From Chloroflexota bacterium (GTDB taxonomy: Bacteria; Chloroflexota; Anaerolineae; Anaerolineales; Villigracilaceae), in assembly GCA_016223135.1 (NCBI GenBank), contig JACRPQ010000015.1, forward strand, positions 248,001 to 312,000: 64,000 bases of DNA. Direction: 5' to 3'. Below, piece after piece: positions 7,940 through 64,000 of the stretch (positions are counted from its first letter, which is position 1; each line of letters starts with the position of its first letter). The notes beneath the pieces were generated by a model that worked only from the letters and a program-made list of their open reading frames with translations, did not search any database and was not told where the DNA came from. A program made the position numbers and the translations under genes.

Positions 7940-8045
7940 TTCTTTACCGTACACAGAAACCCTAAAGGTCTGCGTTCCCTTCGTGAATTTGAGAATTTCC
8001 AAAAAGACCTTTAGGGTTTTTCACGAGAGAAATGTACGGTAGAGA
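7940..8045 (+). mobile_element. Family C element, copy 1
   Basis: 106 bp starting TTCTTTACCGTACA and ending TGTACGGTAGAGA, with inner inverted arms AAACCCTAAAGGTC and GACCTTTAGGGTTT. Nearly identical copies lie at 48640 and 55902. It interrupts the family A sequence and has no coding capacity. Confidence 0.8.
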
Positions 8046-52812: not shown

Positions 52813-53238
52813 ATGTATCACACGCTTATCATTGTTGGCAACGTGGGGAAGGACCCCGAAATGCGTTACACGCCCTCCGGGCAGGCTGTCACATCCTTTT
52901 CCGTTGCTAGTAACCGTCAATATACTGCCGGCAACGGGGAACAGGTGAAAGAAACAACCTGGTTTCGGGTGACCACGTGGGGGAAACAGGCTGAAATCTG
53001 CAACCAGTATGTCAAGAAAGGAATGAAGGTTCTGGTGGAGGGACGCTTAACCCCCGATAAAACCACCGGCGGACCGCGCGTGTGGACCAAGCAGGATGGC
53101 ACCGCCGGCGCATCCTTCGAAGTGACTGCCAACACGGTTCGCTTCTTATCCTCGCGCACCGAAAGCGGCGATGCTCCCATCCAGGGCGGCGGCTTCGAGA
53201 TGGCTGAAATGCCGCCCGAAGACGACATCCCCTTCTAA
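52813..53238 (+). CDS. ssb: Single-stranded DNA-binding protein
   Basis: OB-fold SSB, 141 aa. It starts MYHTLIIVGNVGKDPEMRYT and contains SFSVASNRQYT, TTWFRVTTWGKQAEIC, YVKKGMKVLVEGRL, and a short tail ending EMPPEDDIPF, the acidic tip that recruits repair proteins. It binds single-stranded DNA in replication and repair. GGAGACT lies before the ATG. A very strong terminator follows, so it is probably monocistronic. Confidence 0.96.
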   Translation: MYHTLIIVGNVGKDPEMRYTPSGQAVTSFSVASNRQYTAGNGEQVKETTWFRVTTWGKQAEICNQYVKKGMKVLVEGRLTPDKTTGGPRVWTKQDGTAGASFEVTANTVRFLSSRTESGDAPIQGGGFEMAEMPPEDDIPF

Positions 53239-53249
53239 GCCTGCTATGC

Positions 53250-53297
53250 ACAGGTCTAATGAAACAGGGATGTCCTGTTTGATTAGACCTGTTTTTT
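53250..53297 (+). terminator. Strong intrinsic terminator of ssb
   Basis: 19-bp arms (ACAGGTCTAATGAAACAGG and its mirror, one mismatch) with a five-base loop and a TTTTTT tail, starting 12 nt after the ssb stop. Confidence 0.92.
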
Positions 53298-53309
53298 ACG
53301 GATCGTCCC

Positions 53310-53642
53310 ATGACCACTCCATCCCCCCAACCCCCGCCGCCGGGTCCGCGCTTGGAAATTCCCGAAGGACTCAAACCGCTCTACACCAACCTGGCGCGGA
53401 TTGCCCACTCCCCCGCCGACATCGTCATAGACTTTGCCCAAATCCTGCCGGGCGATGCCAAAGCCGCTGTGCAGGCGCGCATCCTCATGTCTCCGCTCAG
53501 CGCCAAACTGCTCCTGCGCGCCCTGCAGGAAAACCTGGCGCGTTACGAAGCCGCCTTTGGTGAAATCACCGTTCCGCACGCCAGCACGTTGGCAGATAAT
53601 CTCTTCAAGGGCATTCAGCCGCCCGAACCTCCCAAAGAATAG
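53310..53642 (+). CDS. DUF3467 protein
   Basis: A 110-aa protein with a Pro-rich N-terminal tail, then LKPLYTNLARIAHSPADIVI and DFAQILPGDAKAAVQARILM, SPLSAKLLLRALQENLARYE. This is the DUF3467 layout: a short beta region followed by helices. The function of the family is not established. It is 11 bp upstream of the translin-like gene and begins a four-gene group (53310-55385). Confidence 0.8.
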   Translation: MTTPSPQPPPPGPRLEIPEGLKPLYTNLARIAHSPADIVIDFAQILPGDAKAAVQARILMSPLSAKLLLRALQENLARYEAAFGEITVPHASTLADNLFKGIQPPEPPKE

Positions 53643-53653
53643 CAAAGGTCATC

Positions 53654-54343
53654 ATGTATAAACTTGAAAAAATCGCCGAACAAATCCGTCAGAGCCTTGA
53701 GCAGCGCAACTCCATCCGCGAAGAGGCGCTCAAGCAGGCACGCCAGTTGACTCGCGCCTGTTCGCTTGCCATCCGCGCTGTGCATCGCAACGAATTCGAT
53801 GTCATGGAAGACTGCCTGGCGGAAGCGCAAACGCTTGCCGACAAACTGCGGAACGGACTGCGGGATTACCCGGACCTGTACTACGCCGGCTACTCGCAGG
53901 ATGCCCTCAAGGAATACGTCGAAGCCAACGTGACCTGCGCCCTGATCCAAAACCAGGCGCTTCAAACTCCCGAAGACCTGGGGGTGGAATACACCACCTA
54001 TCTCAACGGTCTGGCTGAAGTCGTCGGCGAATTGCGCCGCCGCATTCTCGATATTCTCCGTTCAGGGTACTCGCAAGAAGCGGAGCGCCTGCTCAGCCAC
54101 ATGGACGACATCTACTCCGTGCTGGTCACCATGGATTACCCGGATGCCATCACCAACGGTCTGCGCCGGCAAACCGATAACGTGCGCGGCATCATCGAGA
54201 AAACCCGCGGCGACGTTACCTTCAGCCTGCGCGGCGAAGACCTGACCCAAGCCATCAGCCGCCTGGAAAGGCAATTGAGCACCAACCACATTGAAGTTGA
54301 GGAAAGAAGCGGGGTAGCCTTTCACGTAAACGACGAAGAGTAA
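53654..54343 (+). CDS. Translin-family protein
   Basis: A 229-aa all-helical protein matching the translin family (COG2178 type): LEKIAEQIRQSLEQRNSIRE at the N-terminus, ALKQARQLTRACSLAIRAVH, the conserved ALKEYVEANVTCALIQNQ, and YTTYLNGLAEVVGELRRRIL. Eukaryotic translin/TRAX is a nucleic-acid-binding ring with RNase activity in TRAX; archaeal homologues are known and bacterial ones are uncommon. The C-terminal 45 residues (SFSLRGEDLTQAISRLERQL) are an extra tail. It lies between the DUF3467 and membrane-protein genes. Confidence 0.82.
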   Translation: MYKLEKIAEQIRQSLEQRNSIREEALKQARQLTRACSLAIRAVHRNEFDVMEDCLAEAQTLADKLRNGLRDYPDLYYAGYSQDALKEYVEANVTCALIQNQALQTPEDLGVEYTTYLNGLAEVVGELRRRILDILRSGYSQEAERLLSHMDDIYSVLVTMDYPDAITNGLRRQTDNVRGIIEKTRGDVTFSLRGEDLTQAISRLERQLSTNHIEVEERSGVAFHVNDEE

Positions 54344-54351
54344 GCAGGAAC

Positions 54352-54972
54352 ATGGCGCGCGGCGGCCGCAAATATCCACTCATCGTCTATCGCCATCTGC
54401 TCAACCGTTGGTGGACGCCAATGGTTGCCATTGGATTGGTGATGGTTTTGCTGGCGTATGGCGAATATGCCGACCCTGTGGGAAGAATTTTGAAGCGCTG
54501 GCAATTCCTCGCCGTCGTTGGTGTTCTGGCAATCCTGACGGGCATCTTCTTTCTGGTCATTCGGCAGATTGCCTACGTCCAACCGTTTCGAGGTCATCTC
54601 AAAGTCGTCACGCCGTTCCTGCGTTTCAACATTTCTTACAAACGCATCCTCAAAACCACCACTGTCGAGATGCGCCAACTTTTTCCGCCCCGCAGCATGT
54701 CTGGCTGGATGCGGGACATCTTCGAGCCGCTCGCCCCTCAAACCGCGCTCGTCCTCGAGCTGAAGTCGCATCCCTTGCCGCCCTGGGCGCTGCGCCTGTT
54801 CCTCTCGCGTTTTTTCTTCAAAGACAAAACGCCTCACCTGGTTTTGCTGGTAAAAGACTGGATGGGGCTAAGTACAGAGATTGACAGTTTTCGCACGGCA
54901 GATGGCGCCCTGCCCAAGCCCGAGGAGGGACGCAGGCGGGACACCCTGCTTTCGAGATTGCCCAAAAAATGA
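54352..54972 (+). CDS. Membrane protein of unknown function
   Basis: A 206-aa protein with a basic N-terminus, two membrane helices (about residues 23-40 and 51-71), and a cytosolic beta-type region of about 130 residues (VQPFRGHLKVVTPFLRFNIS...HLVLLVKDWMGLSTEIDSF) that could be a PH-like fold. No motif was recognised. It starts eight bases after the translin gene and overlaps the next gene by four bases. Confidence 0.75.
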   Translation: MARGGRKYPLIVYRHLLNRWWTPMVAIGLVMVLLAYGEYADPVGRILKRWQFLAVVGVLAILTGIFFLVIRQIAYVQPFRGHLKVVTPFLRFNISYKRILKTTTVEMRQLFPPRSMSGWMRDIFEPLAPQTALVLELKSHPLPPWALRLFLSRFFFKDKTPHLVLLVKDWMGLSTEIDSFRTADGALPKPEEGRRRDTLLSRLPKK

Positions 54973-55385
54973 ACATCTATTTTGCCTGTTCCATTACCGG
55001 CGGACGCGAATTCGAAGCGGTTTATCAAGTGATGGTCCATGCGCTGGTGAAGGCAGGACATGAGGTGCCGACGGCTCATTTGGTTGAGGCAGATGTGGGG
55101 ATGCGTGAAGCGGCGTTGAGTCCGCAGGAAGTGTATGCGCGCGATACGGCATGGATCCGCGCCTGCGATGCGTTGATTGCAGAGGTCAGCGTCCCATCGC
55201 ACGGCGTTGGCTATGAAATAGGGTTCGCACTTGGGATGGGGAAGCCCGTGCTGGCTGTATATCAGGAGGGACGCCGGCTCTCGAAGATGATCAGCGGCAA
55301 CCCCGCTTCTTCCCTGACCGTGAAAACGTATCACACACCCGAGGAGGCGATTCAAGTCATCGAACGCTTTCTCTCCTCTCTATGA
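54969..55385 (+). CDS. DNPH1/RCL-like 2'-deoxynucleoside 5'-phosphate N-hydrolase
   Basis: A 138-aa protein of the nucleoside 2-deoxyribosyltransferase superfamily. It starts MNIYFACSITGGREFEAVY and carries ALIAEVSVPSHGVGYEIGFA, where the catalytic Glu of deoxyribosyltransferase relatives lies, and GKPVLAVYQ. The SxGVGYE pattern resembles DNPH1 (RCL), which cleaves the N-glycosidic bond of deoxynucleotides. It is last in the DUF3467-translin group, joined by an ATGA overlap, suggesting nucleotide or nucleic-acid turnover for the group. Confidence 0.83.
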   Translation: MNIYFACSITGGREFEAVYQVMVHALVKAGHEVPTAHLVEADVGMREAALSPQEVYARDTAWIRACDALIAEVSVPSHGVGYEIGFALGMGKPVLAVYQEGRRLSKMISGNPASSLTVKTYHTPEEAIQVIERFLSSL

Positions 55386-55540: not shown

Positions 55541-55580
55541 GCCGCCGCCGGGCAAATCACCCGGCGGCGGCATTGCTTTT
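55541..55580 (+). terminator. GC-rich hairpin after the translin group
   Basis: Perfect 12-bp arms GCCGCCGCCGGG and CCCGGCGGCGGC with a 7-nt loop, followed by ATTGCTTTT. It lies 155 nt after the last stop codon of the group. Confidence 0.75.
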
Positions 55581-63547: not shown

Positions 63548-63784
63548 GTGCCACTCATCCGCTCCTCTGAGATTGGAACTTACCTGTACTGCCGCCGCGC
63601 CTGGTGGTATCGAAAGCAGGGTGTCGAGCCGGCAAACCAGGCGGAGCTGGCGGCTGGAACCGAACTTCACCGCAGGCATGGGCGTCAGGCGCTGGCATCC
63701 GCGCTCACACGCACGGTCGGATTGATTTTGCTGATGATTGCGCTCGTAATGCTGGTGGCGTACTGTTCGGCGCAGGTTCTTTAG
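63548..63784 (+). CDS. Small membrane protein resembling the N-terminal Cys motif of Cas4/Dna2-type nucleases
   Basis: A 78-aa protein starting with GTG: PLIRSSEIGTYLYCRRAWWY followed by RKQGVEPANQ, a polar helix with HRRHGRQAL, and one C-terminal membrane helix (VGLILLMIALVMLVAYCSA). The opening SEIxxYLYCxRAWW closely resembles the start of Cas4-like and related PD-(D/E)XK proteins, which place an Fe-S Cys there. The catalytic part is missing. The next gene, 47 bp on, looks like the following part of the same family. The assignment rests on a short motif. Confidence 0.55.
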   Translation: MPLIRSSEIGTYLYCRRAWWYRKQGVEPANQAELAAGTELHRRHGRQALASALTRTVGLILLMIALVMLVAYCSAQVL

Positions 63785-63831: not shown

Positions 63832-64000
63832 ATGCTCTACTTCGCTCTCGTTCTTCTCTTCATCGCCTTCCTCTTCTTCTGGCAATCAAGCCGCCAGCGA
63901 AAAGCCGCCGGTCTGCCTGGCGGGCGCATCATCTACACCGACACCGGCGGGTGGAACAAACTGGAGAAGCCACTCTATTACGCCGCCCTCGAACTGACCG
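63832..64000 (+). CDS. Start of a membrane-anchored Cas4/Dna2-like (PD-(D/E)XK) protein, cut by the window end
   Basis: 56 codons are visible. It begins with a signal-anchor helix (MLYFALVLLFIAFLFFWQSS), a short basic stretch, and then GGRIIYTDTGGWNKLEKPLY followed by YAALELT. The pattern of IIYxDxG, a charged loop and LxLT resembles the strand region just before the GxPD metal motif of Cas4/Dna2-like nucleases. The catalytic residues lie outside the window. Together with the preceding 78-aa gene it may make a two-part membrane nuclease. Confidence 0.5.
   Translation, partial: MLYFALVLLFIAFLFFWQSSRQRKAAGLPGGRIIYTDTGGWNKLEKPLYYAALELT

Follow-up and report, generated by a model that had tools for sequence, protein, structure and literature searches.

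Translin and TRAX have been reported as single-strand nucleic-acid binders tied to genome stability, a role described for the translin of yeast, and as the RNase of RNA interference. Bacterial translins themselves were already known, and Gupta et al. (2012) name translins of eubacteria in their title. Here we describe a translin-superfamily gene of the TRAX type and its neighbours in a 64-kb window (the whole stretch of DNA analysed) of the Chloroflexota assembly GCA_016223135.1. The explanation that we regard as best, and hold at about an even chance, is that in the class Anaerolineae a homomeric TRAX RNase resembling archaeal C3PO works with the single-stranded DNA-binding protein (SSB) in replication or repair.

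The closest described systems are the archaeal C3PO enzymes, AfTRAX of Archaeoglobus fulgidus (PDB entries 3zc0 and 3zc1) and NeC3PO, or NEQ131 (5jr9, 5jrc and 5jre), which likewise have a single subunit with an all-alpha fold. They share with the Chloroflexota proteins the same acidic positions and part of the basic ones, whereas the latter differ by a Glu at position 122; in structure alignments the window protein is 34% (AfTRAX) and 22% (NeC3PO) identical to them. The ‘Trax alone’ of Nanoarchaeum equitans is described as degrading RNA (PMC9051087), and archaeal TRAX genes as sitting with those of SepRS and endonuclease V (PMC5424206, PMC8762117; these and the other papers given by PMC number are cited from excerpts); in Chloroflexota the order holds instead SSB, a Cas4-like nuclease and RecN. 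The eukaryotic translin-TRAX C3PO has the same fold and, in its TRAX subunit, the same catalytic positions, but the source genome of the window has one superfamily match and not two subunits.

Computation places the window protein in the translin superfamily. Its match to the Pfam family PF01997 reaches 27.4 bits against a cut-off of 25.9 (27.9 bits in the genome search), and the archaeal matches are far stronger than this score implies: AfTRAX is the nearest solved structure by sequence, with E 8.8e-24, or E 1.4e-37 when a 53-row profile is used. An AlphaFold2 model of the chain (mean pLDDT 95.5) aligns with AfC3PO at Z 23.1 (rmsd 1.5, 188 residues, 34% identity), with NeC3PO at Z 21.8 (rmsd 1.8, 186 residues, 22% identity) and with chain J of human C3PO, the TRAX chain, at Z 19.9 (rmsd 2.4, 202 residues). 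Translin entries follow at Z 11.9 to 17.2, and unrelated helical proteins reach at most 9.3. As modelled, the single chain has the all-alpha translin/TRAX fold and is closest to archaeal C3PO.

A search for catalytic acids of the TRAX type, proposed by the initial annotation of this DNA, found four, since E87, E90, E122 and E126 are invariant in 141/141 Chloroflexota sequences (140 loci and the window), all of which are relatives and not independent samples. At the position of E122 both AfTRAX and NEQ131 carry Asp, while all 141 Chloroflexota sequences carry Glu. We take it as an active-site position because the archaeal Asp is altered to Ala there in the entry of AfC3PO with duplex RNA (3zc0, compared with 3zc1). 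Judged from this alignment, Glu fixed in place of Asp is a hallmark of the Chloroflexota TRAX lineage. The catalytic acids of human TRAX are E126, E129, D193 and E197, a set that the bacterial proteins retain with Glu for Asp. Glu197 of human Trax is given as the sole catalytic residue common to translin and Trax (PMC9246224); the bacterial proteins are classed as TRAX-type because they keep all four acidic positions, whereas translin shares just the equivalent of Glu197. Basic residues are kept as well, R22, R30, R41, H44, R45, K86, R128, R129, R171, R172 and R178 in 141/141 and R34 in 140/141. Since one translin-superfamily match was found in the source genome, where separate translin and TRAX subunits would give two, a homomer is expected and not a translin-TRAX hetero-oligomer. 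Altogether, the assignment as a TRAX enzyme, that is, a predicted RNase, is strong.

The substitution in all 141 sequences would also suit a translin-like ring that has lost catalysis and, as an accessory of SSB, only binds single-stranded nucleic acid. Glu, however, is able to replace Asp as a metal ligand. According to the title of entry 5jre, NeC3PO was crystallised also with ssDNA, and human translin is reported to bind ssRNA and ssDNA (PMC3834833), both in keeping with such a ring; yet all four acidic positions are invariant here, while translin keeps just the Glu197 equivalent of the Trax set (PMC9246224), and we regard a non-catalytic ring as improbable.

Several other identities were tried for these proteins and rejected. 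The Pfam BMFP model matches the N-terminal helix of the translin with 25.7 bits, under its cut-off of 37.2, which was taken as coiled-coil likeness. A defence system was discarded, as PADLOC run on the four proteins of the gene group matched the translin no better than marginally, to Cas12f at 13.2 bits (E 0.0071), and at E 0.1 gave no match to the other three. In PHROGs the translin had a chance-level match (E 0.014). A mobile element was set aside too, the translin being unmatched in plasmid and phage collections and on viral contigs.

The gene is widespread. In the first search TRAX was present in 92/101 genomes, the source genome included; within the class it is found in 180/199 genomes (122/131 of the good ones), and across the phylum in 221/400 (168/284 of the good ones). 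TRAX is thus a core gene in the class Anaerolineae. The nearest named relative of the window protein, at 93% identity, comes from an Anaerolinea sp. assembly. That translins are mostly eukaryotic and archaeal, as the initial annotation had it, agrees with the control genomes, where Pfam Translin appears in 3/14, all three archaea; it sits badly with the core status of the gene in this class and with the eubacterial translins already in a title of 2012. On a tree of 69 TRAX rows bearing five taxonomic labels there are 7 label changes, where the least possible is 4 and the shuffled mean 32.4, and changes so few point to mainly vertical descent within the phylum. A root drawn from archaeal TRAX gave no information, since the two archaeal rows, each on a branch of length 10, were too distant to be placed.

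In the window the TRAX gene belongs to a group of four open reading frames (ORFs), all on the + strand, which follows an ssb gene:

52813..53238, + strand, ssb, encoding 141 aa with the C-terminal tip EDDIPF (PF00436, 108.8 bits)
53250..53298, + strand, terminator-like hairpin with a T run, between ssb and DUF3467 (dG -29.3, z -5.7)
53310..53642, + strand, DUF3467 protein of 110 aa (PF11950, 70.1 bits), predicted beta-beta-beta-alpha
53654..54343, + strand, TRAX-type translin-superfamily protein of 229 aa (PF01997, AfTRAX match, structural model; acidic set E87, E90, E122, E126)
54352..54972, + strand, membrane protein of 206 aa without a known family (no Pfam family above cut-off)
54969..55385, + strand, DNPH1/RCL-like putative nucleotide N-hydrolase of 138 aa (PF05014, 60.7 bits; triad Y4, D59, E83)
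55541..55571, + strand, terminator-like hairpin downstream of the DNPH1-like gene, an all-GC stem of 12 pairs with a weak T tail
63548..63784, + strand, N-terminal half of a split Cas4-like nuclease, 78 aa with a hydrophobic tail (PF01930 below cut-off; GTG start picked by eye)
63832..64000 and past the window edge, + strand, C-terminal half of the split Cas4-like nuclease (311832-312344 on contig C12, with stop codon)

The initial annotation had these four ORFs and their spacing exactly: gaps of 11 bp between DUF3467 and translin and of 8 bp between translin and the membrane gene, then a 4-bp overlap between the latter and the DNPH1-like gene. Conservation of the group was followed in two sets of loci, counted only where the expected place is covered by sequence. 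The family-level set comprises the best 80 of 188 confirmed loci, with flanks of at most 8 kb; the order-level set comprises 38 loci, 36 of them order-level matches and two from the phylum search. A crude gene caller chose antisense ORFs in GC-rich loci, and its clusters served for profile building only and not for counts; starts were chosen by rule, with the result that some rows of alignments A2 and A3 extend upstream past the true start.

Within the window's family ssb is in place in 78/79 loci, DUF3467 in 79/79, the membrane gene in 74/79 and the DNPH1-like gene in 49/78, and all four genes together with ssb occur in 44/75 fully covered loci. The two genes upstream of ssb, taken as a local control, are in place in 24/77 and 3/73, relatives of the second being often located farther away, so that gene order is kept well above this control. 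The bacterial translin announced by the initial annotation is in this regard real and stands in a conserved gene group. The refutation that the annotation had named did not come about: the neighbourhood is conserved in the class, and the single chain, as modelled, folds like a translin.

Between ssb and DUF3467 the 71-nt interval folds at -29.3 kcal/mol (z -5.7, equalled by 0/200 shuffles) into a hairpin of 18 pairs with a T run behind it, and this strong fold with a T run at its end makes a terminator there credible, in agreement with the initial annotation, even if the hairpin is absent from the output of a simple terminator scan. That scan gave 2 sites in 5 kb against 5.8 expected from shuffles; the downstream hairpin is not significant alone, because the scan yields fewer sites than shuffled sequence does. 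The hairpin in the ssb-DUF3467 gap, CAGGTCTA..TAGACCTG (window positions 53251-53291), occurs once in the window. It has 11 copies in 11 of the 80 family-level loci (1.12 Mb), all in the same gap, and none in the 38 order-level loci; as every copy among the 80 loci sits at one place, it is unlike a dispersed repeat. A strict rule of hairpin plus T run finds a terminator in 14/78 of the family-level ssb-DUF3467 gaps and a cruder rule in 13/78, while stems scoring at least 10 are present in 33/78 gaps against 5/390 control stretches.

A second kind of palindrome, ACCCTAAAGG..CCTTTAGGGT, lies at window positions 7959, 31491, 48659 and 55921, three of these being near-identical copies of 59 bases. 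Four more copies are present among the 80 family-level loci.

In the order-level set ssb stands in place in 37/37 covered loci and DUF3467 in 31/36, with five covered loci in which DUF3467 was not detected between ssb and TRAX. The constant part of the neighbourhood is thus ssb-(DUF3467)-TRAX, and ssb is its most constant partner. The initial annotation had set ssb apart from the group on account of the terminator, a separation that these counts do not bear out. Behind TRAX follow the N-terminal half of Cas4 in 28/38 loci, its C-terminal half in 25/36, NAD kinase in 23/36, a B-box-like membrane protein in 22/36 and RecN in 19/34, and the row in much of the order reads ssb-DUF3467-TRAX-Cas4N-Cas4C-NADK-x-RecN. 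By a hand count, 10/13 order-level families with TRAX have at least one locus reaching RecN. Representative neighbours were named by Pfam and NCBIfam, RecN by TIGR00634 at 547 and 531 bits (cut-off 408). In the one-contig genome G097 the sole SSB found is the one adjoining TRAX.

The Cas4-like nuclease of this row departs from the described Cas4 nucleases (TIGR00372, PF01930) by being split into two ORFs, each carrying a hydrophobic segment (by eye). The C-terminal half on the window and its contig exceeds the cas4 cut-off (TIGR00372, 77.7 bits against 65) and covers positions 53-158/160 of PF01930 with 42.9 bits (cut-off 22.7); the N-terminal half covers positions 3-44/160 with 17.6 bits, below that cut-off, and matches the order-level profile with E 6.6e-28. 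The two tile the Pfam model without overlap, and no single ORF holding both was present among the loci searched. In the source genome the pair (also L229:549-785 and 833-1345) lies about 9 kb downstream of TRAX on the same strand, and the contig ends about 220 bases beyond it. NAD kinase, the B-box-like membrane protein and RecN open contig C5 (L230:129-3513), arranged as relatives have them downstream of the Cas4 pair, and the two contig ends may adjoin. The C-terminal half is kept in 12/12 genomes searched of the window's family, at a distance from TRAX of about 9 to 10 kb in the source genome and its near relatives G006 and G008, at 16 kb on the other strand in G015, at 78 to 849 kb in five genomes and on a different contig in three. 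Displaced in this way from TRAX, Cas4 indicates a cluster that has been broken in the window's family.

Farther out the neighbourhood thins. The remainder of the class is represented by 8 loci, of which four have DUF3467 (one of them 2 kb off), two the Cas4 halves, one ssb, and one NAD kinase and RecN. In 32 loci from other classes, the few kb inspected to either side of TRAX hold no ssb, DUF3467, Cas4, NAD kinase or RecN, and TRAX therefore does not need these partners. The neighbours seen there (L174, L179, L185 and L196) include AlaX-like editing proteins, a CCA-adding enzyme, ThiD2-ThiE thiamin genes and a membrane pyrophosphatase.

Such a distribution bears on a second account, in which the same RNase serves ordinary RNA turnover, for instance by clearing tRNA 5' leader fragments, and the repair genes are co-expressed housekeeping neighbours. 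TRAX is widespread in the phylum (221/400) while its neighbours change outside Anaerolineae (repair neighbours in 0/32), and some of those neighbours are tRNA enzymes, namely the CCA-adding enzyme of L179 and the AlaX-like proteins of L174 and L185. The company of SepRS and endonuclease V in archaea (PMC5424206, PMC8762117) points the same way, as does the clearing of pre-tRNA fragments reported for Neurospora C3PO complexes (PMC3834833). What RNA turnover alone leaves unexplained is the ssb before TRAX in 37/37 order-level loci, and as the sole SSB in G097. We consider this account plausible, if short of an even chance; because the SSB link is absent outside the class, it is nearly as likely as a role at single-stranded DNA. 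The latter is favoured over plain RNA turnover because the link to SSB is constant, down to the only SSB found in G097, often with RecN and the Cas4-like nuclease behind, and from this constancy we infer both the SSB partnership and the repair role.

The last two genes of the window group are of another kind. The DNPH1-like protein exceeds the PF05014 cut-off of 28.8 by far; its nearest structure by sequence is the mammalian RCL/DNPH1 (E 2e-20), and in PHROGs it matches nucleoside deoxyribosyltransferase families (best E 1.8e-5). It has in common with human and rat DNPH1/RCL the triad, of which Tyr, Asp and Glu are found in 49, 48 and 48 of 49 sequences, and the positions of His56 (kept in 46/49) and Ser98 (48/49). 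It differs at Glu55, described as the water-activating residue of human DNPH1 (PMC10603095), where the window has Ala36 and the 49 sequences have Ala in 21, Ser in 27 and Phe in 1. The product is probably a nucleotide-pool enzyme, added to the group in the window's family. For the membrane protein no Pfam family exceeds the cut-off, and among 15 relatives the matches are weak and dispersed, the best of them (E 0.0055) confined to a single member; there is no PDB match under E 0.97; a scan finds one hydrophobic segment, and a weaker second one is seen by eye. The idea of a PH domain in it found no support in the PDB and Pfam searches. Both genes look like later additions, because the DNPH1-like gene is missing in 29/78 family loci and neither was found in any of the 38 order-level loci, some of which end soon after TRAX.

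This answers the proposal of the initial annotation that the four genes form one system of nucleotide turnover, in which DUF3467 and the membrane protein would assist TRAX and the DNPH1-like hydrolase in a common pathway. The tight spacing, the 44/75 fully covered family loci with the four genes and ssb, and the kept DNPH1 triad speak for such a system. Yet the hydrolase gene is absent from over a third of the family-level loci and from all the order-level ones, an RNA endonuclease yields no deoxynucleoside monophosphates, and the window protein carries Ala where human DNPH1 has E55, so that a single pathway appears very unlikely. Of the conserved neighbourhood that the initial annotation had wished to see checked, ssb-(DUF3467)-TRAX is kept within the class, while the membrane and DNPH1-like genes are confined to the window's family.

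The DUF3467 protein belongs to PF11950 (cut-off 25). Its predicted beta-beta-beta-alpha model (mean pLDDT 87.8) finds COMMD at Z 6.2 (59 residues, rmsd 4.0), Borrelia Pur-alpha at Z 5.1 (62 residues, rmsd 5.7) and PC4 at Z 4.9 (58 residues, rmsd 5.1), weak likenesses that all fall within the stated noise of the tool. No sequence relative exists in the PDB and no Foldseek match at E <=0.001; viral matches are weak (best E 0.0086), and PHROGs gives one unnamed family (E 1.1e-8). DUF3467 was detected in 28/151 phylum genomes and 3/14 controls, and elsewhere members of the family occur without translin: next to ssb in L220, whose SSB is 54% identical to the one in the window, in other Chloroflexota next to radC (named by Pfam in L214 and by eye in L215 and L216) or ribonucleotide reductase (L219), in Bacteroidales plasmid records near rpoC or directly before rpsL (L224, L226), and in a Staphylococcus phage. 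A role in single-strand or nucleotide handling would fit.

Returning to a TRAX RNase that works with SSB, we infer that its subunits probably form a closed ring or barrel with the metal site of E87, E90, E122 and E126 inside, where short or single-stranded RNA would be cut. In Anaerolineae, and above all in the window's order, TRAX would belong to a gene cluster devoted to DNA repair and to the handling of single-stranded nucleic acid, made up of SSB, DUF3467, TRAX, a split Cas4-like nuclease putatively anchored in the membrane, NAD kinase and RecN. DUF3467, as a small beta3-alpha protein, may bind single-stranded nucleic acid or SSB, and TRAX would remove RNA obstructing the copying or repair of SSB-coated DNA. 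In the window's family the cluster would have broken after TRAX and gained the membrane protein there, along with the DNPH1-like nucleotide-pool enzyme, which is optional. A more specific version strikes us as rather unlikely: the TRAX ring, as an RNase coupled to SSB, would serve a repair module that also holds DUF3467, the putatively membrane-anchored split Cas4-like nuclease and RecN, and would clear RNA off R-loops or off broken DNA coated with SSB.

A number of observations weigh against a partnership with SSB in repair. The repair neighbourhood is limited to Anaerolineae; even within the order-level loci the N-terminal half of Cas4 is missing from its expected place at 10/38 and RecN at 15/34; in the family-level flanks (<=8 kb) Cas4, NAD kinase or RecN occur in 0/80, and in the very family to which the window belongs the cluster has come apart, with Cas4 up to hundreds of kb from TRAX. 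A hairpin terminator separates ssb from DUF3467, and genomes of the window's family carry more than one SSB: three of them gave 4 to 6 matches, and the source genome has five SSB-like places, one of them the ssb at 52813..53238. The likeness of DUF3467 to PC4/PUR, at Z 4 to 5, is weak and does not exceed that to COMMD. As for TRAX itself, the catalytic Asp is replaced by Glu in all Chloroflexota members, and the best NCBIfam model, which scores 267 bits where its cut-off is 291, is called ‘haloacid dehalogenase superfamily protein’. This last identity, that of the PRK14562 group, was rejected for its sub-cut-off scores and its mismatch with the translin fold, and the name looks like a naming slip.

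The open-access literature searched on bacterial or Chloroflexi translin and on DUF3467 showed no report of a link between ssb, DUF3467, TRAX, split Cas4 and RecN, Cas4 and RecN themselves not having been searched for. What emerges is a bacterial class with a single core TRAX gene that keeps all the active-site acids, and an order that keeps TRAX beside SSB, often with a Cas4-like nuclease and RecN. The cluster also offers a functional lead for DUF3467 and points to an odd split Cas4-like nuclease, apparently membrane-anchored. The link of TRAX to SSB and repair becomes directly testable in a simple system and, if true, an SSB-coupled TRAX would be a bacterial counterpart of the genome-stability role of yeast translin, independent of RNA interference.

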